Made by a program: the position numbers and the translations under genes. Of a DNA stretch of 64,000 nt, positions 5,611-63,941 are shown piece by piece. The stretch comes from an uncultured beta proteobacterium (GTDB lineage: Bacteria > Pseudomonadota > Gammaproteobacteria > Burkholderiales > SG8-39). The notes under the pieces were generated by a model that worked only from the letters and a program-made list of their open reading frames with translations, was not told the DNA's origin and did no database searches. Within the stretch, counting starts at the first letter, position 1, and each line of letters begins with the position of its first letter. The stretch covers positions 1 to 64,000 of the forward strand of contig CAIOLO010000080.1 of the NCBI GenBank assembly GCA_903859155.1. The letters are read 5' to 3'.

Positions 5611-5880
5611 CTATTCGGTGGGCCGCCACTCAAAGCCGGTGAAGTAGCCCGGGGCATCTTCGACGCGGATGGCATCGACGCTCGCCCCGGGCGGGCCGCG
5701 ATGCGCACGCTCGATCATGGCCTGCACCAGCGGCTCCATGCCGTCGACCATGGCTTCGACGCTGCCGTCGGGCCGGTTGCGAACCCAGCCGGTAAGGCCC
5801 AGGGTCAGGGCTTCGCCGCAGACCCAGTGGCGGAATCCCACGCCCTGTACGCGTCCGGTGATGTGCAGGTGTTTGGCCAT
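5611..5880 (-). CDS. acyP: Acylphosphatase
   Basis: The 89-residue product is a full-length acylphosphatase, a small cytosolic enzyme that hydrolyses acyl phosphates. The phosphate loop GRVQGVGFRHW carries the catalytic Arg17, and GWVRN supplies the catalytic Asn35; the family ending (GFEWRPTE) is present. It is the last gene behind the hydrogenase-like operon, 37 bases after the small membrane protein, and 68 bases before the exporter operon on the same strand. It is probably a passenger of that transcript; I see no functional reason for the link. Confidence 0.95.
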   Translation of the reverse strand: MAKHLHITGRVQGVGFRHWVCGEALTLGLTGWVRNRPDGSVEAMVDGMEPLVQAMIERAHRGPPGASVDAIRVEDAPGYFTGFEWRPTE

Positions 5881-5917
5881 GCTATGGGGTGATCAGGCAA
5901 CCGAACCGCATGGGCGA

Positions 5918-6367
5918 TCAGGGTATGCCGAAGGCCGTGCGTGCCGCTTCGCTGCGCAGGCTGAAGATGGTGGCAATGCAGAAAAGTATGACCGGCAGCA
6001 CGAACAGCGTCATGCCGACGATTATCTGTATCCAGTCCCGCCGGGTGACGCCCTGGCCGAGCTTGTACACGGTGTAAATCCGGCTCGCCGTCGACAGCAC
6101 CACCAGCGCCATCAGCATCCAGCAGAACAGTTGCAGCAGGAACTGGCCCCATTGGCTGCGATCGATGACGCCGATCGCGCCGCCGAATCCGATCACCCAG
6201 ATCATCAGCAGCATGACGTCGTTGAGGATGTTGTAATCCTTGTAGCGCTCCTTGATTATGCCGCGGGCGTAAAGCACGGCGAACACGAGCAGGCCGAAGA
6301 TCACCACGATGCCGCAGGCGGTCGCATAGAACCAGCCGATAAAATCAAGATCAAAAGTGTCGAGCAT
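5918..6367 (-). CDS. Four-helix membrane protein of unknown function at the end of the Hyf-like operon
   Basis: The 149-residue hydrophobic protein is not one I recognise. Four membrane segments are visible at about residues 11-33, 51-67, 77-93 and 113-135, with a short basic loop after the first (RGIIKERYKDY) and another before the last (VTRRDW). The ATG at 6367 follows the small-subunit gene by 14 bases, so it is very likely translated from the same transcript. The position suggests an accessory or assembly subunit of the complex, or an unrelated membrane protein. The upstream extension of the frame overlaps hyfI and is not believed. Confidence 0.75.
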   Translation of the reverse strand: MLDTFDLDFIGWFYATACGIVVIFGLLVFAVLYARGIIKERYKDYNILNDVMLLMIWVIGFGGAIGVIDRSQWGQFLLQLFCWMLMALVVLSTASRIYTVYKLGQGVTRRDWIQIIVGMTLFVLPVILFCIATIFSLRSEAARTAFGIP

Positions 6368-6381
6368 GTCCTGGTGTTCCT

Positions 6382-6909
6382 TCAGTCGTGCGTTGCGGCG
6401 GGTTTTGCGGATATTGCAGTAAGAATTCCCTGCATGATGGCCGCCGGTGTGGGCGGACAGCCGGGCACGGCGACGTCCACGGGTATCACGTTGGCTACGC
6501 GGCCGCGGCTGGCGTAGGACTCGCCGAACATCCCGCCGTCGCAGCCGCACTCGCCGAGGGCCACCACCAGCTTGGGATCGGGGGTGGCCTCCCAGGTGCG
6601 TTTGAGGGCGACTTCCATGTTGCGCGCAACCGGGCCTGTCACCAGCAGCATGTCGGCGTGGCGCGGGCTGGCGACGAACTTGATGCCCAGACCCTCCAGG
6701 TTGTAATAGGGGTTGTTGAGGGCGTGAATTTCCAGTTCGCAGCCGTTGCACGAGCCGGCATCCACCTGGCGGATCGCCAGGGCGCCATTGAACAGGCGCA
6801 GGATTTCGTTTTCCAGGCGCTGGGTGAGGACGCGCAACGATTCCTCGGGCGGCGGCGGCGGCTCGGTCCTGATGCCGACATCGAAAACCTGTTTGAGCAA
6901 TTGGTACAT
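6382..6909 (-). CDS. hyfI: NuoB/HyfI-like iron-sulfur small subunit
   Basis: The 175-residue product is the NuoB/HycG/HyfI homologue, the peripheral subunit that holds the last [4Fe-4S] cluster. Cysteines of the cluster motif are present: GSCNGCE (Cys54, Cys57), GECGCDGG (Cys121, Cys123) and PGCPP (Cys151). So this subunit should still carry its cluster even though the partner large subunit has lost its Ni ligands. It lies 23 bases after a 27-codon ORF that follows hyfG. The symbol is by family resemblance and not proof of orthology with E. coli hydrogenase 4. Confidence 0.9.
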   Translation of the reverse strand: MYQLLKQVFDVGIRTEPPPPPEESLRVLTQRLENEILRLFNGALAIRQVDAGSCNGCELEIHALNNPYYNLEGLGIKFVASPRHADMLLVTGPVARNMEVALKRTWEATPDPKLVVALGECGCDGGMFGESYASRGRVANVIPVDVAVPGCPPTPAAIMQGILTAISAKPAATHD

Positions 6910-6932
6910 AAGTTCTTGTTGAACAAGGGGGC

Positions 6933-7016
6933 CTACGCGCCCTCGTAACTCCCCCGATGCAGAGGGAAACGCCGATTGCGTCGAATGGGAAACAGCAACT
7001 TGATCAGCGTTTCCAT
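6933..7016 (-). CDS. Possible 27-residue ORF in the hyfH position
   Basis: Between hyfG and hyfI, where every other gap in this operon is 14 bases or less, there are 112 bases. They contain a small ORF that starts 5 bases after the hyfG stop (AGGA about 12 bases upstream of its ATG) and ends 23 bases before the hyfI ATG. The peptide starts METLIKLLFPIRRNRRF and is basic. In E. coli and related operons this slot holds the ferredoxin-like subunit HyfH (NuoI), whose N-terminus has a similar LLK...FPL pattern, but there is no cysteine here. It may be a vestige of that gene, a small subunit, or chance. Confidence 0.45.
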   Translation of the reverse strand: METLIKLLFPIRRNRRFPLHRGSYEGA

Positions 7017-7021
7017 GGAAA

Positions 7022-8578
7022 TTATAGATCCTGTCCCGAGTACGACAGATTGAATGATTTGTTGATCACCGGAAAATCCGGAACGATATTGCCGATGACC
7101 GCATGCTCCAGGGCGGGCCAATTCTGCCACGACGGATCGTGCGCATGCGCCTGCCGGATGCGGCCGTTCTCGCCGGCTTCCAGCGCGACAAATATTTCGC
7201 CGCGCCAGCCCTCAATCCAGCCCAGCCCGGGGGCGCCCGCCGGCGGCACCGGCAGTTCCATGCACTCCCGGCCCGGGGCGATGCGCTCGACGATGGCGCG
7301 TATCAGCCGCAGGGATTCGAAAACCTCCCCGAAGCGCACCGCGACGCGGCCGGCGACATCGCCGGAGCGGGCGGTGCTCACGCGCACGTCAAGCAGATCG
7401 TAGGGGGCAAGCCCCGGCGAGCGGCGCGCATCCATCGCCTCGCCGCTGGCGCGCGCGGCAAAACCCACCACGCCCAGCCGCCGTGCGGTCGCCGCGGTCA
7501 GGATGCCGCAGGTCATGAAACGGTCCTGCAGGCCGGCATGGTCGTCGTAGATTTCGCGCAGCGTGCGCACTTCGGGTTCGAGCGCATCGCACTGTGCGGC
7601 CAGTTGGTCGAGCGCGGCGCGGTCGATGTCGCGCATGACCCCGCCGGGGACAATGGCGTCCATCAGATAGCGGTGGCCGGCGACGCGCGCGTTCAGGCGC
7701 AGCACATCCTCCTTGAGGCGCATGAACTGGGCCAGGCCAAAGGCGAGACCGCCATCGTTGCCCAGGGCGCCCAGATCGCCCAGGTGATTGGCGATGCGCT
7801 CGCGCTCCAGATACAGCGCGCGCAGCCACAAGGCCCGCGGGGGCGGCGTCGTGCCCGTCATGGCCTCGACGGCCATGGCATAGGCCCAGGCATACGCCAC
7901 GGTCGAATCGCCCGAAATCCTCCCTGCGAGGCGGGCGCCTTCCTTGAGGGTGAGGGCGCTGAAGCGCTTGGCTATGCCTTTGTGGGTGTAGCCCAATCGT
8001 TCCTCGAGCCGCAATACTTTCTCGCCGACCACAGAGAAGCGGAAATGACCGGGCTCGATGATGCCCGCATGCACCGGTCCGACCGGGATCTCGTGCACTC
8101 CCTCGCCCTCGACCGGCACGAAGGCGTAGTTATCCGTACCCGGAGGCGAGGTGTTCTCCAGGCTCGCATCGCGCCGCAGCGGAAATTCCGATCCGCTCCA
8201 GGCCCCGTGGCTAAGCCACGGCCGGCGATCGACAAACGCGGTCGAATGTTCCACCTGGATCCCCAGCAGATCGTGGATGGCCCTTTGCTGGCGATCGGCG
8301 CTGCTGAACCATTGCGACAGATCGGGATACGCCGGATTCCGTGCGTCGAGCCGGCAGGTGAGCCACAGCGCGCCGTCGCCATTGGCAAGGATAAGATGCA
8401 GCGAGAAACCTCCGGCCTGGTCGCGGTTGTCGGCGCCCCACAACGCGGTCAGGCGCCCGCCCTGGTCGCGGACCGCACGGCACACCTGGGGAAGCTGAGC
8501 GGTTTCGACCCGGGCGTGCCACGCCGGCGAGGCTCCGTGGAGGGGGAGCATGGGCAACTGCAATCCTTCGAAGGCCAT
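7022..8578 (-). CDS. hyfG: HyfG/HycE-like large subunit (NuoC-NuoD fusion) without Ni-binding cysteines
   Basis: The 518-residue product fuses a NuoC-like domain (about 1-165) to a NuoD/[NiFe]-hydrogenase large-subunit domain (about 170-518). The conserved HEIPVGPVHAGIIEPGHFRF segment and the ending NKSFNLSYSGQDL fit the Hyf/Hyc-like group. In true hydrogenases the Ni-Fe centre is held by RxCGxC and DPCxxC. Here these read R220-I-S-G-D-S225 and D481-P-S-W-Q-N486, so all four Cys are replaced by Ser or Asn. The protein cannot be a normal [NiFe] hydrogenase; it fits the Ehr class between complex I and group 4 hydrogenases. The electron donor and acceptor are unknown. Confidence 0.93.
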   Translation of the reverse strand: MAFEGLQLPMLPLHGASPAWHARVETAQLPQVCRAVRDQGGRLTALWGADNRDQAGGFSLHLILANGDGALWLTCRLDARNPAYPDLSQWFSSADRQQRAIHDLLGIQVEHSTAFVDRRPWLSHGAWSGSEFPLRRDASLENTSPPGTDNYAFVPVEGEGVHEIPVGPVHAGIIEPGHFRFSVVGEKVLRLEERLGYTHKGIAKRFSALTLKEGARLAGRISGDSTVAYAWAYAMAVEAMTGTTPPPRALWLRALYLERERIANHLGDLGALGNDGGLAFGLAQFMRLKEDVLRLNARVAGHRYLMDAIVPGGVMRDIDRAALDQLAAQCDALEPEVRTLREIYDDHAGLQDRFMTCGILTAATARRLGVVGFAARASGEAMDARRSPGLAPYDLLDVRVSTARSGDVAGRVAVRFGEVFESLRLIRAIVERIAPGRECMELPVPPAGAPGLGWIEGWRGEIFVALEAGENGRIRQAHAHDPSWQNWPALEHAVIGNIVPDFPVINKSFNLSYSGQDL

Positions 8579-8588
8579 GTTCGCTTCC

Positions 8589-10049
8589 CTAGCCGATCAG
8601 TTTGGCGGCCTGGCGGTACCAATCGGCCAGGTGCGGGGGAATATAGAGGCCGAGCATCAGCACGATGGCCAGATGCACGAACACCGGAATCTGCGCCGGC
8701 GCAAAGGGCAGGCGTTTGAGTGAAATTTCGCCGCGCGAATCGCCGAAAACCATGGGCTGCACCTTGGCGAACACTGCGGCGAACGCCACGCCCAGGGATA
8801 TCAGCAGAATAGGCGTGGCCCAGGGCTGTTCGCGCATGGCGGTGGTGAGCATCAGGAACTCGCTGGCAAAAACGCCGAACGGGGGCAGGCCGAGGATGGC
8901 CATGGTGCCGATCAGCAGGCCCCAGCCCACCGTGGGATTGATGCTGATCAGGCCGCGGATTTCATCGATGACCTGGGTGCCTGCTTTCTGCGCCGCGTGT
9001 CCTACTGTGAAAAAGATGGCGCTCTTGGTGAGCGAATGCACCGTCATGTGCAGCAGTCCGGCGAAACTGGCCACCGGACCTCCCATGCCGAAGGCAAAGG
9101 TGATCAGTCCCATGTGCTCGATGGACGAGTAGGCGAACAGGCGCTTGACATCGCGCTGGCGCGCGAGGAAAAAGGCCGCCACCACCACCGACAGCAAACC
9201 GAAACCCATCATCAGGTTGCCGGCGAAGTGCGAATGCAAGGTTCCATCCACCAGCACTTTGCAACGCACCAGGGCATACAGCCCCACGTTGAGCAGCAGG
9301 CCCGAGAGCACCGCGGATACCGGCGTGGGGCCCTCGGCATGCGCGTCGGGCAGCCAGTTGTGCAGCGGTGCCAGGCCCACCTTGGTGCCGTATCCCACGA
9401 TCAGGAAAACGAAGGCAAGGGAGACGACCGTGGGCTCGAGGCTGCCGGATACTTCCTGAAGGCGTGTCCACAGCAGCGCCTCGCCACCGGCCCCCAGCAC
9501 CCGCTCCGAGGCAATATACAAAAGGATGGTCCCGAACAGCGCTTGCGCGATGCCCACGCCGCAGAGGATGAAGTATTTCCACGCGGCCTCCAGCGAGGCG
9601 GGCGTGCGGTACAGGGATACCAGAAGAACGGTGGTCAGCGTGGCCGCCTCGAGGGCGACCCAGAGAATGCCCATGTTGTTGGTGAGCAGCACCAGCAGCA
9701 TGGTGAAGGTGAACAACTGGTACATGCTGTGATACAGGCGCAGGCGCGTTTCAGTGAGGCGGCCATGGGCCTGCTCGATGCGCATGTAGGGGCGCGAAAA
9801 AATGGCGGTGGTCATGGCCACGAACGCGGTGAGCGCGACCAGGAAGACATTCAGCGAATCCACGAAGAACTGGTGATCCGGCGTGATCATGGGGCCGTCG
9901 GATATCACCCGTGCGGTGAGCACCGCGGCGGCGATGAAGGTGAGCGTGCTCATCAGAAGATTCAGCTCGGCGGCCAGGCCGCGGTGTCCCCACAGGGCGA
10001 GCAGCGCCCCGCCGATCAGGGGAGTGCCGAGGACAAAGAAGATTTCCAT
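8589..10049 (-). CDS. hyfF: HyfF-like antiporter-type membrane subunit
   Basis: The 486-residue product is an NuoL/M/N (Mrp antiporter) family membrane protein with roughly 14 hydrophobic segments. Proton-channel residues are conserved: Glu134 in WVALEAATL, Lys158 in AAWKYF, and Lys223 in GTKVGLAPLHNWLPDAH, with a further conserved region SLTKSAIFFTVGHA. In the complex it should couple electron transfer to proton or sodium movement. It starts 7 bases after hyfE and ends 10 bases before hyfG. Length and motifs match HyfF more than NuoN. Confidence 0.93.
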   Translation of the reverse strand: MEIFFVLGTPLIGGALLALWGHRGLAAELNLLMSTLTFIAAAVLTARVISDGPMITPDHQFFVDSLNVFLVALTAFVAMTTAIFSRPYMRIEQAHGRLTETRLRLYHSMYQLFTFTMLLVLLTNNMGILWVALEAATLTTVLLVSLYRTPASLEAAWKYFILCGVGIAQALFGTILLYIASERVLGAGGEALLWTRLQEVSGSLEPTVVSLAFVFLIVGYGTKVGLAPLHNWLPDAHAEGPTPVSAVLSGLLLNVGLYALVRCKVLVDGTLHSHFAGNLMMGFGLLSVVVAAFFLARQRDVKRLFAYSSIEHMGLITFAFGMGGPVASFAGLLHMTVHSLTKSAIFFTVGHAAQKAGTQVIDEIRGLISINPTVGWGLLIGTMAILGLPPFGVFASEFLMLTTAMREQPWATPILLISLGVAFAAVFAKVQPMVFGDSRGEISLKRLPFAPAQIPVFVHLAIVLMLGLYIPPHLADWYRQAAKLIG

Positions 10050-10056
10050 GCGCGCC

Positions 10057-10719
10057 TCAGTCTTCCTTCAGTTTTTCCAGATGGCGGATATCGAGGCTGT
10101 CGAAGTGCTCGCGGATCTGGAAGAAAAACACGCCCAGGATCACCATGCCCACCAGCACGTCCAGCGCGATGCCCAATTCGACCACCATGGGCATGCCGTA
10201 GGTGGCCGAAGTGGCCGCGAAAAACAGCCCGTTTTCCATGGCGAGAAATCCGATCACCTGCGGAATGGCCTTGGAGCGGGTGATCATCATCAGGAACGCG
10301 AGCAGCACGATGGCCAGCGCAATGCCCAGGGTGCTGCGCGTGATGGTTCCTGCCAGCGCGGATATCGGCAGCGCCAGATTGAAGGCAAGTATCACCAGCA
10401 CGATGCCCACGATCATGGTCATCGGAATATTGATGAGGGTCTCGATATCCCATTTGACGTTGAGCTTGCGCACCAGCCGGTGCAGGATCCACGGCAGCAG
10501 CAGCACCTTGAGCAAGAACGTGATCAGTGCCGACCAGTACAGGTGCGGCTGCGAGGTGGCCCAGGCCACCAGCAGCGTGGAGAGCGTCAGCGTCAGGCCC
10601 TGCAGCGCGAACAGATTGATGAGCGTGAGCACGCGCCGCTGCGAGAGCATCGCAAAGGCGATCAGCAGCATCATCGCCGCGAGCAGGTTGATGAACTGCG
10701 AGGGCAGCGACAGTGCCAT
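10057..10719 (-). CDS. hyfE: HyfE-like membrane subunit (NuoK-related)
   Basis: The 220-residue product has about six membrane segments and the HyfE pattern: a NuoK-like core near MLSQRRVLTLINLFALQGLTL and a C-terminal extension ending REHFDSLDIRHLEKLKED. The ATG at 10719 overlaps the hyfC stop by one base (TGATG). The frame stays open further upstream, but that part runs through hyfC and is ignored. It is a membrane-arm subunit of the complex. Confidence 0.9.
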   Translation of the reverse strand: MALSLPSQFINLLAAMMLLIAFAMLSQRRVLTLINLFALQGLTLTLSTLLVAWATSQPHLYWSALITFLLKVLLLPWILHRLVRKLNVKWDIETLINIPMTMIVGIVLVILAFNLALPISALAGTITRSTLGIALAIVLLAFLMMITRSKAIPQVIGFLAMENGLFFAATSATYGMPMVVELGIALDVLVGMVILGVFFFQIREHFDSLDIRHLEKLKED

Positions 10720-11669
10720 CAACTCTCCAGCAGGAAGTGGATGAGCATGGCCAGCACCGCCAGCAGAAACGCGGTGCCGAGGAACTCCGGTGCGCGGAAA
10801 ATGCGCATCTTGGCGCTGACCGACTCGATCAGCGCCAGCAGGAAACCGCCGGCCGCCAGTTTCACGGCAAGCACCGGCAGCGAGATCAGTATTCCGAGCC
10901 AGTTGCCGCCGTCGGCAATGCCGAAAGGAACGAACAGCGCAATGCCGATGCAGGAATAGGCGAACAACTTCAGGCTGGCGGCCCATTCCATCAGCGCCAG
11001 GTGGCGGCCGGAGTATTCCAGCAGCATCGCCTCGTGGATCATGGTCAGCTCGAGATGGGTGGCCGGATTGTCGACCGGTATGCGCGCATTTTCCGCAAGC
11101 GACACCATGGTGAAGGCGACGCCGGCGAACGCGAGGCTTGGATAGATCATCAGCTCCATGCGCCCCAGCTGGCCGACGATGGAGGAGAGCGAGGTGGAGC
11201 CGGAAATCAGCGACGCGGTGAACAGCACCATCAGCAGAGCCGGTTCGGCCAGAAATCCGATCATCATCTCGCGGCGTGCTCCCAGGGTGCCGAAGGCGGT
11301 GCCGATGTCCATGGCCGCCAGCGACATGAAGACGCGCGCGAGCGCGAACAGGCCCACCAGCGCGATGGCGTCGGCCGCGGCATTGAAGGGCAGGTTGATG
11401 TCGAGCGTGGGCACGATCGCCGCGGCCAGGCACATGCAGCCGAAGATGATGTAAGGCGTTATGCGGAAAAGCGGCGAGGCGTTTTGCGCCAGCACCGGTT
11501 CCTTGTTGAACAGTTTGAGCAGCACGCGGTAAGGGGTGAGCAGCGGCGGCGCACTTTTGTTCTGCATCCAGGCCCGGCACATGTTGACCCAGCCGGTAAA
11601 CAGCGGCGCGAGCAGCACCGCGAGCATGAGCTCGGTGAGTTGCGCCGCGATGCCCGCTATCGTTAACAT
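10719..11669 (-). CDS. hyfC: HyfC/NuoH-like membrane subunit
   Basis: The 316-residue product belongs to the NuoH/HycD/HyfC family, the membrane subunit that contacts the peripheral arm. About eight membrane segments are seen, and the hallmark loop ENARIPVDNPATHLELTMIHE is present (Glu, Arg and the DNPATHLE stretch). It ends in a one-base overlap with hyfE and starts 13 bases after hyfB. In complex I this subunit forms the quinone channel; in hydrogenases it transmits the coupling. Confidence 0.93.
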   Translation of the reverse strand: MLTIAGIAAQLTELMLAVLLAPLFTGWVNMCRAWMQNKSAPPLLTPYRVLLKLFNKEPVLAQNASPLFRITPYIIFGCMCLAAAIVPTLDINLPFNAAADAIALVGLFALARVFMSLAAMDIGTAFGTLGARREMMIGFLAEPALLMVLFTASLISGSTSLSSIVGQLGRMELMIYPSLAFAGVAFTMVSLAENARIPVDNPATHLELTMIHEAMLLEYSGRHLALMEWAASLKLFAYSCIGIALFVPFGIADGGNWLGILISLPVLAVKLAAGGFLLALIESVSAKMRIFRAPEFLGTAFLLAVLAMLIHFLLES

Positions 11670-11682
11670 GGTATCGGCGTGA

Positions 11683-13680
11683 TCATCGCACCAGGAACAG
11701 CAGAACGATCAGGGTGAGAAAACTGTATAGCAGGTACACCGAAATGCGCCCCTGCTGCAGCTTGTTGACCAGCGTCGAGGCGAATTCGGTGACACGCCCT
11801 ATGGGCAGATACAGCCAGTGCCACAGATGGTCCTCGACCGTGACGCGGTAGCGCGGCGCGCGGTCCTCGGGTGAGGGCAACTCGCGCCGCATGCGAAAGA
11901 ACGGTTCGAACACCTGCCGCACCGGCTGGCCGAAGCCCTCGGCGCTGTCTTGCATGCGCGCGGTCTGGAACGGAAAGCCGCAGTCCCAGGCGGGACCGCG
12001 GCGGACGCGGCCGTGGTAGAAGTGGCGCACCAGATACCAGGTGGCCAGCACCACCAGCGCGACCACCGCGAGAAACAGCAGCGGGCTGTAGCTGGAGCGC
12101 TCCGGTTTGATGGGCGCGAGGAACAGCCAGTTGGACGAATTGCCAAGACCCTGGCCGAGCAGCTGCCGGTTGACCTGGTCGATCACATCGATCACGCTGA
12201 CCGGCAGCAGACCGAGGATCACGCATCCGGCTGCCAGCCAGAGCAGGCCGGCCTTCTCCCAGGGGCCGGCGTCATGCGCATCGACCAGCTTTTCTTCGCG
12301 CGGGCGGCCGAGAAACACCACGCCGTAGAACTTGACCATCACGTAGCCGGCCAGGGCCGCGGCGAGCACCACTACCGCGGTAGCCACCGGAATGAACATG
12401 TTCAGGTAGTTCTGCGGCAAGCCCGGGGTAAAGAGGAACGCCTGCAGCAGCAGCCATTCGGACACGAAACCGTTGAGCGGCGGCACGCCCGCGATGGCAA
12501 GTGTTCCGACCAGCGCCAGCCAGGCAACCCACGGCATGCGGTGAATCAGCCCGCCGAGCTTTCCCAGGGAGCGCTCGCGCGTGGCGTGCAGCACCGAACC
12601 GGTGGCAAGGAACAGCAGGCTTTTGAAGAAGCCATGATTGAGCGAGTGATAGAGCATGGCGGTCAGCGCCAGTGCGGCGAGCGAGCGCATCTCATAGGCG
12701 CGAAACGTGATTGCCAGCCCCGCGCCGGCAAAAATGAAGCCGATGTTTTCGATCGACGACCAGGCGAGCAGGCGCTTCATGTCGCTTTGCACCGCCGAAA
12801 AGATCACGCCGTAGAGCGCCGTGGCCAGGCCGACGGCCAGCACGATCACCCCCCACCACCAGATCTGGGTGCCCATGAGATCGAACATCACCCGGAGAAA
12901 TCCGTAGACGGCCGTCTTGAGCATCACCGCGCTCATCAGCGCGGATGCCGGCGAGGGCGCGGCCGGGTGTGCCTCGGGCAGCCACACGTGCAGCGGAACT
13001 ATGCCCGCCTTGGCGCCGAAGCCCGCCAGCGCCAGCGCGAAGGCGATGGTCCCCCAGAAGGGCGTAAGCGCCACCTTGCGCATGGCGTCGAAGCTGTAAT
13101 CGCCGGTGCCTCCCTGCAGAACGCCGAAGCAAAGCAGGATGGCGACCGCGCCCACGTGGGCGATCAGGATGTAGAGGAATCCGGCGCTGCGGATCTCGGC
13201 CTTGGCATGGTCGCTGACCACCAGGAAGTAGGAAGACAAGGCCATGGTTTCCCAGAAAACCATGAAGGCGTAGGCGTCGTTGGCCACCAGGACCAGCGCC
13301 ATGCTGGCCAGAAACACGTGGTAGTAAAGGCATTGCAGGCCGGGGGCGTTGCCTTCCCCGGGGCGCAGATAGCCGCTGGCAAACACGGACACTCCGGCGC
13401 TCACCGAGCCCAGCAGCAGCAGAAAGAATCCGGAAAGCGCATCGATGCGCAGGTGAAACGGCAGGTCGGGCAGGCCCAGCGGAAGAACCAGGCTGGCCGT
13501 GCCGCCCAGCGTGGCGGCAAAGCCGGCGGCGGCCAGGACCAGCGCGCCGGCGGCGCCCAGCGGGAAAAGTATTTTCGCCACGATGCGCAGATTGCGGGCA
13601 AAGGCGATGCCCAGCAAGGCGATGGCCAGCCATAGCACGATGACTGCCAGTACCGTTTGCAGGGGCATCGAAATGGTCAA
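11683..13680 (-). CDS. hyfB: HyfB-like antiporter-type membrane subunit
   Basis: The 665-residue product is the large NuoL-like subunit of the membrane arm. Key motifs are FMVFWETMALSSYFLV with the channel Glu, GFGAKAGIVPLHVWLPEAH with Lys and the conserved His, and YHSLNHGFFKSLLFLATG. The length with the C-terminal extension (FRMRRELPSPEDRAPRYRV onwards) fits HyfB. It is the first gene of the operon, 43 bases downstream of metG on the same strand, so metG and the complex could share transcripts. The upstream ATG at 13680 is kept; a second Met is at residue 5. Confidence 0.93.
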   Translation of the reverse strand: MTISMPLQTVLAVIVLWLAIALLGIAFARNLRIVAKILFPLGAAGALVLAAAGFAATLGGTASLVLPLGLPDLPFHLRIDALSGFFLLLLGSVSAGVSVFASGYLRPGEGNAPGLQCLYYHVFLASMALVLVANDAYAFMVFWETMALSSYFLVVSDHAKAEIRSAGFLYILIAHVGAVAILLCFGVLQGGTGDYSFDAMRKVALTPFWGTIAFALALAGFGAKAGIVPLHVWLPEAHPAAPSPASALMSAVMLKTAVYGFLRVMFDLMGTQIWWWGVIVLAVGLATALYGVIFSAVQSDMKRLLAWSSIENIGFIFAGAGLAITFRAYEMRSLAALALTAMLYHSLNHGFFKSLLFLATGSVLHATRERSLGKLGGLIHRMPWVAWLALVGTLAIAGVPPLNGFVSEWLLLQAFLFTPGLPQNYLNMFIPVATAVVVLAAALAGYVMVKFYGVVFLGRPREEKLVDAHDAGPWEKAGLLWLAAGCVILGLLPVSVIDVIDQVNRQLLGQGLGNSSNWLFLAPIKPERSSYSPLLFLAVVALVVLATWYLVRHFYHGRVRRGPAWDCGFPFQTARMQDSAEGFGQPVRQVFEPFFRMRRELPSPEDRAPRYRVTVEDHLWHWLYLPIGRVTEFASTLVNKLQQGRISVYLLYSFLTLIVLLFLVR

Positions 13681-13723: not shown

Positions 13724-15820
13724 TTATTTGATCTTCATGCCGGGTTGCGCACCACTGTCCGGGGCAAGAAGGAAGATGCCGGGCGCTTCGCCGCTGGCCG
13801 CGAGCACCATGCCTTCGGACAGGCCGAATTTCATTTTTCGCGGCGCGAGATTGGCCACCATGACCGTCAGCCGGCCCTCAAGCGAGGCCGGATCGTAGGC
13901 CGATTTTATTCCAGCGAATACCGTGCGTGATTCGGCGCCGATGTCCAGGGTGAGTTTGAGCAGCTTGTCGGCGCCTTCGACGTGCTCGGCCTTGACGATT
14001 CTCGCCACACGCAGGTCGACCTTGGCGAAATCGTCGATCGAGATAGGCGCCGGCACCGTCCTCTGGGCATCGGCCATCGAGTGGCTCTGGACGGACATCT
14101 TGGGGATATCGCTCACTGTTTTTTGCTCCTTGGCGGGGGGGGCTGCGGGAAGACCGAGCAGCGCATCGAACTGCTTTTCTTCGACGCGGGTCATGAGGTG
14201 GCGGTACGGTCCCATTTTGCGGCCGATGCCCCGGCGCAAATCGGACCACCGCAATGGCGTTGGCAAACCGAGCCAGATTGCGACGTTCTCCGCGGTTTCC
14301 GGAAGTATCGGCGCAAGGTAGTAAGTCAGGATCCGAAAAGCATCCAGACATTCAGAGCACACCGCATGCAACTGTTTTTTTGTCCCGGGATCGGCGATGT
14401 TCTTGGCCAGGTCCCATGGCCGGGCTTTATCCCAGCGCTGGTTGATGAGGTCGGCCAGGCGCATGATTTCGCGTACCGCCTTGCCGAACTCGCGCGCGTC
14501 GTAATCGCCGGTCAACGATTCTTCTGAAGCATAAACAACCGTATTGGTCGGGTTGTTGCCGTCGGGCGCAAGCAATTCGCCGTCAAAATATTTGGTAATG
14601 AATCCCGCCGCGCGGCTGGCGATGTTGACGTACTTGCCGATCAGGTCGCTGTTTACCCGCGCGATGAAATCCTCGGGGTTGAAATCCACATCTTCGACAT
14701 TGGCGCTGAGCTTGGCGGCGATGTAGTAGCGCAGCCATTCCGGCTTCATGCCGAGTTCCAGGTATTTCAGCGGCGAGATACCCGTGCCGCGTGATTTGCT
14801 CATCTTTTCGCCGGATACGTTGATGAAGCCGTGCACATTTACCTGGTCCGGCGTCTTGTAGCCGGAATACTCGAGCGTCGCCGGCCAGAACAGGGTGTGG
14901 AAGTAGATGATGTCCTTGCCGATGAAATGGATCATCTCGGTGCCCTGCGCCTTGCTTTTTTCGGGCCGGACGAAGGCATCGAAATCGAGGCCCTTTCTCG
15001 CGCAGTATTGCTTGAGGCTGGCGAAGTAGCCCACCGGTGCGTCCAGCCACACATAGAAGTATTTGCCGGGCGCGTCCGGGATCTCGATACCGAAGTACGG
15101 TGCATCGCGCGAGATGTCCCAGTCGCCCAGAGCCTTGTCGCCTTCGCCGTTGAGCCATTCTTTGGCCTTGTTGGACACCTGCGATTGCAGACGCCCGGGC
15201 TTGTTGATCCATTCCCTCAGGAAGGCGACACACTTGGGGTCGGACAGGCGGAAGAAAAAATGCTCCGAGCTGCGCAGTTCGGTCTTCGCTCCCGAGAGCG
15301 CCGAGTAGGGATTCACCAGGCGCGTGGCCTCGTAGACCGAACTGCAGTTCTCGCAGGCGTCGCCGTACTGGTCCTTGGCGCCGCAATTGGGGCATTCCCC
15401 CTTGATGTAGCGGTCGGCGAGGAACATGCCCTTGACCGGGTCGAACAACTGCTCGATGGAGCGCGTGTAGATGAGTCCCGCCTCCTTCAAGCGCGCGTAG
15501 ATTCCGCGCGACAGTTCGGCATTCTCCGGGGAATGCGTGGAATGCCAGTTGTCGAAGGAAATGTGGAAGCCATCCAGGTATTGCTTGCGCCCTGCGGCAA
15601 TGCCGGCGATGAAGGCCTCCGGCGTGGTGCCCGCCTTTTCCGCGGCCAGCATGATGGGCGCGCCATGCGCATCGTCGGCGCCCATGAAATGCACCTCGTT
15701 GCCGAGCATGCGCTGGAATCGTACCCAGACGTCAGCCTGGATATACTCCATGATGTGGCCGATGTGGAAGGGACCGTTTGCGTAGGGCAGGGCGGTCGTG
15801 ACGAAGAGTCGACGCAGCAT
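13724..15820 (-). CDS. metG: Methionyl-tRNA synthetase
   Basis: The 698-residue class I synthetase charges tRNA-Met. HIGH is at residues 19-22, the catalytic loop reads [10 protein letters not shown], and a zinc knuckle is formed by [17 protein letters not shown]. After the anticodon-binding helices a Pro/Lys linker leads to a C-terminal tRNA-binding OB domain (from about residue 590, with [17 protein letters not shown]) that mediates dimer formation. It is divergent from mrp, with 100 bases between the two starts. Complete and of normal length. Confidence 0.98.
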
Positions 15821-59689: not shown

Positions 59690-61744
59690 TCAGGAACCCT
59701 GTGCGCGCGCGGCGCGCCAGCTCCACAGCTCATCGATCGCCACCAGCAAAGCGTCGGCATCGGCGTATCTTTCACCGGGATTTTTGGCGAGCAGGCGATC
59801 CAGAACGGATTGGCAATCCGCGAGCGTCTGGGGGAGCCGCGGGACCGGCGCACGCAGGTGCTGCGTGACCAGCTCCGATATGGCTTCTGCCTGGAATGGT
59901 TTGCTGCCCGTGAGCATTTCGTAGAACATGATTCCAAGGCTGTACAGATCGGAGCGCTCTGACGCCGGCAGGCCTTCGATCAATTCCGGCGCGAGGTAGT
60001 AAGGAGTGCCAAACAGCTCGCCATGGAGCGTTTGCTCGGCATCTGCCTGGAGTTTTTTCGCAATCCCGAAATCGGCAATCGCCATGGTGCCGTCATCGCG
60101 AACCATGATATTGGCCGGTTTGAGGTCGCGATGGATGATGCCCCGGGCGTGCAATTCGCGGAGCCCGCCCGCCAGTTGGGCCATTACCGAAAGTGCCTGG
60201 CGTTCGCTGAGTCCTGCGTCAATGGCATCCTTGAGCGTGCCTTTGGGCATGTATTCCATGGCAATGAATGCATAGGCATCGGTAAATCCATAGTCATAAA
60301 TTTTCACCACATTGTTGTGCTGTGCCGAGGAAATCAGCATGTACTCCTGCGCAAATCGCTGAAACAGCTCGGGGTCGTCGGCGGGCCTGGCATTGAGGAT
60401 TTTCAGCACTATCTGTTCTCCATCGCTTTCGCGCCTGGCCAGGTAGACATGTGACATGCCGCCCTGGCCGATCTTGGAGACGATTCGGTAGCCCGCGACC
60501 GCCGGTGGCAGCATCGCGTTGCGCGCGTGGGCAAGGTCCGAGGTGATCATGCGCAGGGTTTCGTTGAGCACGGCCTTGGATGCATTGGCGGCATCCCTGG
60601 CGTTGGCGGCCAGCGCCTCGAGGATTTCCGGAGGCAATTCACCCGCTGTGTCCAGCCCCTCAAGTTGATGGTCGGTCCCGGTGATCTCCACGGCTTCGAC
60701 CGCGGTGGAGCGTCCGCGCAAATCCAGCATGATCGATCTGCCGGTTCGTATTCCCGCTCCGGCGGCATCAACAGTGGTGCGGCTTGCGATTATCGGCCAG
60801 CCCATTGCCTTGGTCCGCGCTTCCAGCCGTGATGCCACATTGACACTGTCGCCGATCAGGGTAATTGCATTGCCGCCGGCGGGACCAATCAGGGTTTCGA
60901 TCATTTCACCGCTGTGAATGCCGATGCCCACGGAGAACTTCGGCAGCGCATGCTCACCGTGGCGTTCGCGAATCCAGTCGCCGAATTTGTACGCGGCAAG
61001 GGCGATACCCATGGCGGCGACCAGCGCCGCACGCGCGTGATTATCCCCGGGCTTTTCCGGCGCGAACACCGCCATCATTCCGTCGCCCAGCAGCTTGACT
61101 ACACGGCCTCCGCTGGCCAATACGGGAGCGCAGGCGCCGTAAAAATAGGCATTCAGCAGTTCGGCAGTCTGCGCCGAGGTGAGGCGTTCGGAAATAGTGG
61201 TGAAATTGCGTATGTCGGAGAAAAGAACCGTACCCGTGATCATTTTTCCGGTCGTCCCGGCGGCAAATGCATCATCCTCGGCGGCCACCGGCCGCCCGGT
61301 GACACGGCCGCGAAAGCGGGCCCGCATTTCATCGGGGTCGGAAACGATCCTCGCGGAGAGCGCGTCCACCACGCGCTGGTGCTTGCTCAGGTGCGAATTG
61401 ACGGCCGCCAGCAGTTCATCACGGGTAAACGGCTTGTTGAGGAAGTCATCGGCGCCCAGGTTCATGCCGCGTCGCATGCTGGCGCGGTCGTCCAGTGCGG
61501 TAAGGAACATGAAGGGCAGGTCGACGTTGTCGGGATTGGCGCGCAGCGCCTCGAGCACCCCATAGCCGTCCAGTTCCGGCATCATCACATCGCAGATCAC
61601 CAGATCCGGACGGCTCAAGGAAATTTGAACCAGCCCTTCCTTGCCGTCAGCAGCCTGCGTGACTTCGTAGCCCTCGCCCTTGAGCATCAGCTGAAGGTTC
61701 AGGCGGATCTGAAAATCGTCTTCTATGACAAGTATCTTGGTCAT
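59690..61744 (-). CDS. Receiver - class III nucleotide cyclase - Ser/Thr kinase fusion
   Basis: The 684-residue protein joins three signalling modules. Receiver domain 1-120: acidic pair D9 D10, phospho-Asp D52, Lys104. Cyclase domain about 168-310: metal Asp177 in FSDIRNFT and Asp221 in KLLGDGMM, Lys217 and GDSVNVASRLE (adenylate type by pattern, not proven). Kinase about 419-684: GQGGMSHVYLA, Lys448, HRD (538-540), DFG (558-560), GTPYYLAPE. It is the second gene of an operon; the histidine kinase gene ends 16 bases before it, so the receiver is probably its partner. No membrane segment. Intact motifs suggest all three outputs can work. Confidence 0.9.
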   Translation of the reverse strand: MTKILVIEDDFQIRLNLQLMLKGEGYEVTQAADGKEGLVQISLSRPDLVICDVMMPELDGYGVLEALRANPDNVDLPFMFLTALDDRASMRRGMNLGADDFLNKPFTRDELLAAVNSHLSKHQRVVDALSARIVSDPDEMRARFRGRVTGRPVAAEDDAFAAGTTGKMITGTVLFSDIRNFTTISERLTSAQTAELLNAYFYGACAPVLASGGRVVKLLGDGMMAVFAPEKPGDNHARAALVAAMGIALAAYKFGDWIRERHGEHALPKFSVGIGIHSGEMIETLIGPAGGNAITLIGDSVNVASRLEARTKAMGWPIIASRTTVDAAGAGIRTGRSIMLDLRGRSTAVEAVEITGTDHQLEGLDTAGELPPEILEALAANARDAANASKAVLNETLRMITSDLAHARNAMLPPAVAGYRIVSKIGQGGMSHVYLARRESDGEQIVLKILNARPADDPELFQRFAQEYMLISSAQHNNVVKIYDYGFTDAYAFIAMEYMPKGTLKDAIDAGLSERQALSVMAQLAGGLRELHARGIIHRDLKPANIMVRDDGTMAIADFGIAKKLQADAEQTLHGELFGTPYYLAPELIEGLPASERSDLYSLGIMFYEMLTGSKPFQAEAISELVTQHLRAPVPRLPQTLADCQSVLDRLLAKNPGERYADADALLVAIDELWSWRAARAQGS

Positions 61745-61760: not shown

Positions 61761-63941
61761 CTACGCGGGCAGCGCCCGGATGCGCGCGGAGAAGTTCGAT
61801 CCGACGCCCAGTTTGCTGGTCACAGTGACGCCGCCGCCATGCAGTTCCGCAGCGCTCTTGACTATGGCCAGCCCCAGGCCGGTGCCCGGGCGGCTGCCGA
61901 CATTTCCCGCCCGATGGAAACTCTCGAACATCTTCGGGAGGTCTTCGGCGGGGATGCCGATGCCTTGATCATTGATGCTGAGCAGGATTTCATCGCCCGA
62001 TTCGACAACCGAAAATCCGACGCAGGTGCCCTCCGGGGAGTATTTCAGCGCGTTGGTCAGGAGATTGATCACGATATGGCGCAACAACTGCTCGTCAACC
62101 TTCCTCTGGCGCTGCTCCAGGTCGCATTTGAACTCCAACTGGTGCTTGGCGCCGTGGCTGAAGCGCAGGGCTTCGACTATCCCCGACAGTGCCTCGCTCA
62201 AGTCAAGGGCCACGGGGTTGAACTTCAATTTTCCTGATTCGGATCTGCCGATAAGCAGCACATCATTGATGAGGGCGGTCATGCTCAGAACCCCGTCCTT
62301 GATCGCCTGGAGGAGTTTCGCCTGGTCTTCGGCCGAAAGGGTTGCCGAATAATGTTGCAGCAATTCCGCGGAGGAAAGAATATTGGTGAGCGGCGTGCGG
62401 AATTCGTGGGAGGCGATCGAGACGAATTTCGACTTCATCTCGTTCAGTTCCTTCTCGCGCTGCAGGGCGGCGAACAATTCCGATTCTGCGAGTTTTCTCT
62501 TGCTGACATTCACGTTGGTGCCTACCAGCCGTCGCGCGCGGCCCGTGGCATCGCGTTCCACCGTTTCGCCCTGGGTATGAATCCAGATCCATTCGCCGGT
62601 TGTCGAGCGCACCCGGAATTCGACCGACAAACTCAGGCCGGAGTTCTTGAGGCATCCGATCAGAGCGGCTTTGAAACGTTCCCGGTCTTCCGGGTGGATC
62701 AGGCTTGCCAGTTCCTCAGGCTTCACATGGGATTCCCCCCCTTCGGTCCTGAGCATCGCCGGCCACGCGGCATCCAGATAAACGGTACCGCGCGCTTCTT
62801 CCCATTCCCAAACAGCCAGCGCCGAGGAATGCACCGCGAGGTCGACGCGCTCAGTGGCGCGCAACAGCTCGGTTTCGGCGTTCTTGCGCTCGGTGATATC
62901 AATGACCGAAATGATGCAACCCGCGAGCGCATTGCCTTGATCCACGTCGCGGCTTTCCACGGCGAGCCATTGCCGGTACCCGTCATTTCGGGTTTGCGAA
63001 ACTTCGGCAGGCAGCGCGGTTTCGCCGGCCGCGACTGAATGGTGTCCTGGCGTAGGAGAGGAATGATCCCGCGCCGGCACTTGTTTCAGGAGGGCCAGCG
63101 GCTTGCCGGTCAGATACTCCCGTGTCTGGCCGAGCATCTCGCAAAGTCGCCGGTTGCAGCGGACAACTTTTCCTTCTGCGACCAGGGCGATGCCCACCGA
63201 GGCCGTCTCGAAGATGGTTTCCTGCTCGCGCAGGGCCGCAGTGACGGATTTCTCGGCGGCGCGCAGCAGTTCCAGCAGTTTGGCGTTCTCACGGCCGTCG
63301 GCGAGCGTGGTCATCAGTGCCCGGTGGGCGGAGATGTAAAGCGAGAGCAGGACGCCGGTGAAGACCAGCAGCAACAGGCCGGTGGCCGTGTTGACTTCGC
63401 CCCCAGAGGAGAACATCAGCGCAACCACCGGCGCCAGGATCGGCAGCACGAAGCTTACGAAGGCTTTGGGGCTGGGCGCCAGCGAGGGCGGCAGGCCCAT
63501 GCTGATGGTACTGAGCAGAAACGCCACGGTGAGCTCGGGCACCGAGCGCGCCTGCGAGGTCAGCAGAAGCAGCGACAGGCCCCAACCGGTGCCCAGCGTG
63601 GCGCTGACAAGGCAGAAAATGTTCTCCCAGCGAAGCGCCTGATCCTTGGCCGGCTGAACGCGCCGGTAAAGGCGCGCGAGCAGATAGCGGGCGACGCTGG
63701 CGGCAATCAGCCACAACGCCCATGCGAGCAGCAGGGATACTTTTACCACGCCCCACAATGCGAACACGGCGACAGAGGCCACTAGAAGGATCATTGGCGT
63801 GTCTTCGCCGCTCAACCTGTAGAGCAGCGCGACGCGTTCGTGCAGGAATTCGCTACGAGTCAATACGAATCGACTGAAGGGCGTCTGTTCAGGAACCGCG
63901 GCGTTCGGGGAATCGGGCGCTGAAGGCATAGGTGCAAACAC
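61761..63941 (-). CDS. Membrane PAS histidine kinase
   Basis: The 726-residue sensor has about six membrane helices in residues 48-205, a coiled coil, two PAS domains (about 240-350 and 370-480, each ending like VIDITERKN or TNVNVSKRK), HisKA with His512 (IASHEFRTPLTN), and HATPase with N630-region NLLTNALKYS, DQGIGIP and GTGLGLAI. It is expected to phosphorylate the receiver of the next gene. Signal unknown. The N-terminal segment is MASE1/MHYT-like only in having several helices; I do not name it. Confidence 0.93.
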   Translation of the reverse strand: MFAPMPSAPDSPNAAVPEQTPFSRFVLTRSEFLHERVALLYRLSGEDTPMILLVASVAVFALWGVVKVSLLLAWALWLIAASVARYLLARLYRRVQPAKDQALRWENIFCLVSATLGTGWGLSLLLLTSQARSVPELTVAFLLSTISMGLPPSLAPSPKAFVSFVLPILAPVVALMFSSGGEVNTATGLLLLVFTGVLLSLYISAHRALMTTLADGRENAKLLELLRAAEKSVTAALREQETIFETASVGIALVAEGKVVRCNRRLCEMLGQTREYLTGKPLALLKQVPARDHSSPTPGHHSVAAGETALPAEVSQTRNDGYRQWLAVESRDVDQGNALAGCIISVIDITERKNAETELLRATERVDLAVHSSALAVWEWEEARGTVYLDAAWPAMLRTEGGESHVKPEELASLIHPEDRERFKAALIGCLKNSGLSLSVEFRVRSTTGEWIWIHTQGETVERDATGRARRLVGTNVNVSKRKLAESELFAALQREKELNEMKSKFVSIASHEFRTPLTNILSSAELLQHYSATLSAEDQAKLLQAIKDGVLSMTALINDVLLIGRSESGKLKFNPVALDLSEALSGIVEALRFSHGAKHQLEFKCDLEQRQRKVDEQLLRHIVINLLTNALKYSPEGTCVGFSVVESGDEILLSINDQGIGIPAEDLPKMFESFHRAGNVGSRPGTGLGLAIVKSAAELHGGGVTVTSKLGVGSNFSARIRALPA

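Follow-up and report, generated by a model that had tools for sequence, protein, structure and literature searches.

What does a membrane-bound, hydrogenase-like complex do once its large subunit has lost the residues that hold nickel? The question is raised by a hydrogenase-4-type (hyf) operon of an uncultured beta proteobacterium (GenBank assembly GCA_903859155.1, contig CAIOLO010000080.1), which we analysed within a stretch of 64,000 nucleotides, hereafter the window. The operon consists of six consecutive genes, hyfB-C-E-F-G-I, which occupy 13680 to 6382 on the minus strand; no gap from hyfB through hyfG exceeds 13 bp, and 112 bp separate hyfG from hyfI. As far as sequence can tell, it is not a functional [NiFe] hydrogenase: no [NiFe] site of a known type can be assembled in the encoded complex, for which a role as hydrogenase is most unlikely. 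We consider that the six subunits probably form a redox-linked ion pump with one iron-sulfur (FeS) cluster, belonging to the Ehr class of membrane complexes.

All six genes had been named in an earlier account made from the letters alone (the preliminary description), and Pfam and NCBIfam searches agree. Together they identify hyfB, hyfC, hyfF, hyfG and hyfI, and hyfE was named by an NCBIfam match below its cut-off alone. The start codon of hyfB is TTG, and its family match begins at an in-frame Met four codons later. The six genes are as follows.

11683..13680, minus strand: hyfB, antiporter-like membrane subunit of 665 amino acids (Proton_antipo_M, 1.2e-53; NF005086, 920 bits against a cut-off of 667)
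10719..11669, minus strand: hyfC, NuoH-like membrane subunit (NADHdh, 1.4e-33; acidic residues conserved with 66 relatives)
10057..10719, minus strand: hyfE, hydrogenase-4 membrane subunit E (NF008556, 6e-28, below its cut-off; synteny in relatives)
8589..10049, minus strand: hyfF, second antiporter-like membrane subunit (Proton_antipo_M, 1.2e-52; NF005045, 866 bits against a cut-off of 543)
7022..8578, minus strand: hyfG, fused NuoC/NuoD-like large subunit of 518 amino acids without nickel ligands (Pfam, alignments and tree)
6382..6909, minus strand: hyfI, NuoB-like small subunit with one [4Fe-4S] ligand set (Oxidored_q6, 2.1e-31, its sole match)

The operon has no hyfA, hyfD or hyfH gene, and Pfam found in it neither NuoE, NuoF, NuoG or NuoI nor a ferredoxin domain, which agrees with the earlier remark that a ferredoxin-like subunit is missing. 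The same account had noted the lack of nearby hyp or hycI-type genes; among the 19 window proteins scanned, which are a part of its open reading frames, there is indeed no hydrogenase or maturation gene.

The former nickel site and the probable pump arm

The N-terminal ligand motif RVCGIC of Escherichia coli HycE aligns with RISGDS in HyfG (220-225), as had been read before, and S222 and S225 occupy the ligand positions. The C-terminal part was aligned with HycE in two ways, as a single sequence and through a 27-sequence profile. The preliminary description had taken DPSWQN (481-486) for the counterpart of DPCxxC, which proved a misreading: in both alignments this hexapeptide falls on HycE AATYAN, and we rejected it as the ligand motif. 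The true counterpart of HycE DPCYSC is NLSYSG (510-515), with S512 and G515 at the ligand positions. The loss of all four nickel-ligand cysteines, which was the central claim, is nevertheless correct.

The residues that replace them are conserved. We compared 110 sequences, namely the window, 29 other loci and 80 named loci (the best 80 of at least 569 relatives, among 589 stretches listed), and added six plasmid rows to reach 116. Position 222 is Ser in 111 of these (Cys in 3, Ala in 1, Val in 1), position 225 is Ser in 101 (Thr in 10, Ala in 4, Cys in 1), position 512 is Ser in 111 (Ala in 5) and position 515 is Gly in 115 (Ala in 1). Four sequences have one Cys across the four sites and none has two or more, while D224, N510, Y513, D517 and E175 are invariant (116/116). 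Sequencing error, chance or a pseudogene as the cause of the missing cysteines was rejected, the replacement residues being fixed in more than 100 relatives. Furthermore, in 110/110 sequences exactly three residues follow position 515 before HyfG ends, at a place where HycE continues into a tail. We take HycE to be cleaved by HycI at that C-terminal point; HyfG stops three residues past position 515 and therefore should need no HycI-type protease. Because the replacement residues are conserved, four of the surrounding residues (D224, N510, Y513 and D517) never vary and the native end stands where hydrogenases carry a tail, the site appears to have been rebuilt and not left to decay. The S/D/S...N.S..G pocket, together with Glu175, which is kept as in HycE, argues for a site that may have been rebuilt for a small polar substrate.

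The small subunit was said to keep its cluster cysteines, and C54, C57, C121 and C151 of HyfI are present in every row having residues there. HyfI aligns with MbhJ without a gap around CxxC and carries no ferredoxin domain. In the membrane arm, 62-69 relatives share the pump residues of HyfB and HyfF and acidic residues of HyfC (62 for HyfB, 66 for HyfC), and E. coli Hyf has them too; ion translocation is therefore likely. The earlier suggestion of a proton- or sodium-pumping redox complex gains support from these residues as regards the pump, and remains an inference as regards the ion and the redox partner.

Placement among Ehr-type, Hyq and other complexes

The preliminary description had proposed a large-subunit tree with NuoD, HycE/HyfG, MbhL and Ehr sequences. 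Ours, of 52 large subunits, contains NuoCD and three hydrogenases (E. coli HycE and HyfG, Azospirillum Hyf), and it sets the window HyfG apart from all three of these; MbhL and named Ehr sequences, as well as EchE and CooH, were left out. The tree holds three blocks of 5, 3 and 44 rows. The first (support 100/100) unites E. coli NuoCD, a NuoD-like row of the window's own genome and three class-genome sequences with Cys at two of the four sites, and the second (100/99) the three hydrogenases, all with Cys at each of the four sites. The window HyfG lies in the third (96/95), where 40 rows have no Cys at the four sites and 4 rows have one. Inside this block, a clade of 35 rows that includes Hyq (100/99) is made up of a mainly betaproteobacterial branch of 20 rows with the window HyfG (100/97) and 15 alpha- and gammaproteobacterial rows (83/47, weak). 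The remaining 9 of the 44 rows belong to two further families; in one the small subunit has a ferredoxin domain (3/3 loci looked at), and in the second it has a partial, sub-threshold ferredoxin match (2/2 loci).

Two kinds of relative were observed alongside. Loci L129, L130 and L133, from three class genomes, encode NuoD-like large subunits with Cys at two of the four nickel-ligand sites (C, D, C, E), the same number as in MBS of Pyrococcus. At L126 (6565-7371), L118 (10095-10904) and L127 (5127-5915), members of another family of the class that is free of nickel ligands have the small subunit and a ferredoxin domain in one protein, and an antiporter-like gene follows.

The Ehr class, whose function is given as unknown in the portions consulted of PMC6349859, PMC10284858 and PMC10432482 and which is also treated in PMC7894505, combines group 4-like subunits with the loss of nickel ligands. 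The window operon resembles it in both respects, its subunits being homologous to the large, small and membrane subunits of group 4 hydrogenases. The fit to this class that had been suggested is upheld by the tree, in which HyfG falls outside the three true hydrogenases included and among sequences in which no more than one of the four cysteines is present. Judged by its sequence, the HyfG complex thus belongs to the Ehr class and shares a clade with rhizobial Hyq, but not the Hyq cysteines; unlike the sister Ehr-type families sampled, it has no ferredoxin domain in HyfI. Nickel-free hydrogenase-like complexes are a known, widespread class, which the window operon joins.

Among better-known complexes, E. 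coli hydrogenase-4 and formate hydrogenlyase (Hyf, Hyc) share the pump residues, in the case of Hyf, and the fold: HycE is the nearest match of the predicted HyfG structure in Foldseek (TM score 0.82) and the closest solved structure (7z0s). They differ from the window complex, which has no nickel ligands, no RxCGxC or DPCxxC motif, no hyfA, hyfD or hyfH and no C-terminal tail. Unlike respiratory complex I, the operon has no NADH module, and the quinone-ligand positions of NuoD read I174 and G223. In Pyrococcus MBS the NiFe site has likewise been lost; the complex has an ion-translocating arm and builds up a Na+ gradient. In contrast to the window complex, however, it keeps two of the four cysteines, has the ferredoxin-type subunit MbsN and shows an open-iron cluster, the result of a cysteine loop with three residues fewer than that of MBH (PMC7684303, in the part available); the window operon has neither retained cysteines nor a shortened small-subunit cysteine loop.

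The closest described relative is the operon hyqRBCEFGI of Azorhizobium caulinodans, which is controlled by NifA and whose deletion slows diazotrophic growth by ~21% (PMC2650096, PMC2930871, PMC3357923, each in part). Eight genera were noted to have a HyqG without either CxxC motif, and attention was drawn to three conserved cysteines (PMC3357923). The window operon has the same six structural genes B, C, E, F, G and I in the same order, without A, D and H, the same S/D/S...N.S..G site without CxxC motifs, and a place in the same clade, in which rhizobial and azospirillar proteins stand for A. caulinodans HyqG. It differs in that the positions of the A. caulinodans cysteines C258, C491 and C497 (numbers matched by spacing) are G273, I505 and L511 in the window HyfG; they read C, C, C in 5/5 alpha rows and G/I/L in 88/116 rows. 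A further difference is that metG, and not the regulator gene hyqR or a helix-turn-helix (HTH) gene, stands directly upstream; in Rhizobium johnstonii 3841, pRL11 carries BCEFGI together with an HTH gene, and an HTH gene family occurs on 8/25 alpha/gamma-type loci. A last difference is that the window's own genome has no nifH match. The missing CxxC motifs are already in print for Hyq relatives; what is new is the extension to the window branch, its lack of the three cysteines and the neighbourhood data given below.

Orthologues (at least 43% identity over at least 390 residues) occur in 34/274 class genomes, the window's own included, and were set against 36 genomes without the operon, hand-picked out of 240 by size and completeness. 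A HypD match is found in 17/34 genomes with the operon vs 17/36 without (Fisher p = 1). A dependence of the operon on Hyp was rejected, as HypD is no commoner with the operon and 17/34 operon genomes have no HypD match. The window's own genome has HypD, HypE-like and HypF proteins (names from domains), which are accounted for because their genes adjoin a Hox-type NAD hydrogenase, away from the operon. Two metagenome bins titled Bordetella parapertussis and Sphingobacteriaceae (L034, L110) hold betaproteobacterial-type orthologues; the titles may be wrong. A match also lies on pBB1 of Cupriavidus necator N-1, and possible mycobacterial relatives are among the matches listed.

Proposed mechanism and competing explanations

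In the working model of the ion pump, HyfB, HyfC, HyfE and HyfF would make up an arm of the kind known from complex I and hydrogenase-4, through which H+ or Na+ is moved, and homology places HyfG and HyfI on its probable cytoplasmic foot. Because one cluster site and neither a ferredoxin nor an NADH module are encoded, a soluble donor or acceptor would have to meet HyfI directly. The [4Fe-4S] cluster of HyfI may have a soluble carrier of low potential as its direct partner in electron exchange, with ferredoxin and flavodoxin as the best candidates. The former NiFe cavity, which S222, D224, S225, N510, S512 and Y513 are predicted to line, would take a small acceptor or donor, and the redox step there would drive the ion gradient or, in reverse, be driven by it.

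Several observations weigh against this model. No partner gene is conserved across the clustered loci: neighbour clustering of 68 named loci of at least 9 kb (families on at least four loci, the larger of them annotated) and of 25 alpha/gamma-type loci (families on at least three) yielded no recognisable electron-donor gene, several families having no Pfam match. In the predicted structure the pocket loops are unresolved (confidence score pLDDT below 50 at 143-201 and 494-518), and the model was set aside as unusable for the HyfG pocket. A quinone partner is weakened by the positions corresponding to H38 and Y87 of Nqo4, the His and Tyr that we assume to be the quinone ligands of complex I, which are I174 in 116/116 sequences and G223 in 115/116. 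Moreover, published genetics reads alphaproteobacterial Hyq as a real, reversible H2 enzyme: its deletion raised H2 loss 15-fold at 20 uM O2 and lowered H2 loss at O2 below 1 uM, and A. caulinodans still recycled H2 after the hup/hyp cluster had been deleted (PMC3357923, PMC2930871, in part). If these genetics are right, H2 chemistry without nickel ligands exists in the clade.

The same evidence bears on other explanations of the operon. A quinone oxidoreductase resembling complex I, with a soluble donor supplying its electrons, as was proposed for Hyq (PMC3357923), would suit the homology to NuoB, NuoC, NuoD and NuoH; with the Nqo4 ligand positions read as Ile and Gly, we hold it to be unlikely, if worth keeping in mind. 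That the window encodes a nickel-free, Hyp-independent hydrogenase, or a needed part of one, is suggested by the Hyq mutant phenotypes (PMC2650096, PMC2930871, PMC3357923). In line with this, nifH above the cut-off is commoner with the operon (11/34 vs 3/36, p = 0.017), a weak result since the 36 genomes were hand-picked. The mutant effects may be indirect, however, and with all four nickel ligands gone, the three HyqG cysteines absent and no nifH match in the window's own genome at E <= 1e-60, this explanation is very improbable here. Slightly more improbable still is an MBS-like complex whose proximal FeS cluster is itself the site where a sulfur compound is reduced: MBS too lost its NiFe site and makes a Na+ gradient, but the gap-free alignment of HyfI to MbhJ with all four ligands kept contrasts with the shortened MBS loop, and the two retained cysteines of MBS and the missing ferredoxin subunit of the operon speak against it as well.

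A different kind of explanation comes from the genes beside the operon, namely that the complex energises bicarbonate or CO2 capture, for example by pumping Na+ for SulP symporters or by driving CO2 hydration, in a role like that of DAB and cyanobacterial NDH-1. SulP permease genes are found on 15/80 named loci, all 15 among the 55 loci with at least 2.5 kb upstream of hyfB, and in 12 of the 15 a SulP gene that shares the strand of hyfB ends 42-299 bp before it; the loci come from Thiobacillus, Sulfuricella, Gallionellaceae and others (sulfur and iron oxidisers). Fifteen genomes (14 SulP-linked ones and that of L066) have 1-8 SulP matches each, some genes being counted twice, and chance adjacency should be ~1% per locus, an estimate that ignores shared descent. 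A CsoSCA-like carbonic anhydrase occurs on 6/80 named loci, a gamma-carbonic anhydrase-like hexapeptide protein on 6/80 (two of them partial matches), the RuBisCO large subunit on 4/80 and cbbQ on 5/80. At E <= 1e-60 the CsoSCA-like enzyme is rare (3/274 class genomes), and in one of the three (G082), in the other sub-branch, it follows hyfI at a distance of ~85 bp, in the same orientation. Against this, the other two (G014, G106) have the carbonic anhydrase without the operon, none of seven neighbourhood query genes (SulP, carbonic anhydrase etc.) has a match in the 64-kb window, and the window's own genome has no RuBisCO match. On 25 alpha/gamma-type loci, of which 24 belong to the other sub-branch and 1 to the window branch, SulP is found on 0 and carbonic anhydrase on 1, and five further window-branch loci (L157-L161) have neither. 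An association of RuBisCO with the operon was rejected (18/34 with vs 21/36 without at E <= 1e-100; Fisher p = 0.63, computed with 22/36 before the recount gave 21). Sulfate may be the substrate of the linked SulPs. On the tree the SulP label clusters by descent (0/500 shuffles as low), and the 3 changes that firm branches require may be one gain and two losses. Taken together, we regard this role as doubtful. A shade more doubtful is its broader form, in which the Ehr branch would be a third complex I-derived carbon engine beside NDH-1 and DAB, its emptied cavity or its arm serving bicarbonate or CO2 capture with SulP and carbonic anhydrase, and serving a housekeeping CO2 supply in hosts without RuBisCO such as that of the window.

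Two observations concern these neighbours themselves. In Sulfuricella sp. T08, three SulP genes lie within ~12 kb directly upstream of the operon (L162, 4295-15991). CsoSCA-like carbonic anhydrases of ~350 amino acids with a CxDxR stretch stand beside such operons at L060 (14410-15465), L069 (12190-13251) and L141 (7238-8293).

Flanking genes and significance for the Ehr class

The preliminary description had given 5611-13680 as the Hyf operon. This interval does contain the six hyf genes, but it also spans two further genes, and a third stands upstream.

5918..6367, minus strand: hydrophobic protein of 149 amino acids, a downstream neighbour kept in part of the relatives (no Pfam or NCBIfam match)
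5611..5880, minus strand: acylphosphatase gene, a neighbour and not a Hyf subunit (PF00708, 1.2e-23)
13724..15820, minus strand: metG, methionyl-tRNA synthetase, 43 bp upstream of hyfB (PF09334, 2.2e-137)

The 149-residue protein has a tblastn match at 8/80 named loci, 6 of which are in the neighbour clustering, and following hyfI it is a possible extra subunit or a mere neighbour. A metG match lies on the locus in 22/55 informative named relatives. Elsewhere in the window, the minus-strand genes at 59690-61744 and 61761-63941 combine one protein with response-regulator, adenylate/guanylate cyclase and Ser/Thr kinase domains and an adjoining PAS histidine kinase, an unusual relay from two-component system to second messenger to kinase.

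Ehr-type complexes stand between hydrogenases and complex I in evolution and, in the parts of the literature surveyed, have no proven donor, acceptor or function apart from Pyrococcus MBS/MBX. In the literature searched we noticed nothing in print that connects hyf-like operons with SulP or carbonic anhydrase, and this neighbourhood offers a first, testable functional lead. Comparison of the HyqG branch with the window branch, from which the three cysteines are gone, likewise makes the published claim of a Hyq hydrogenase testable.

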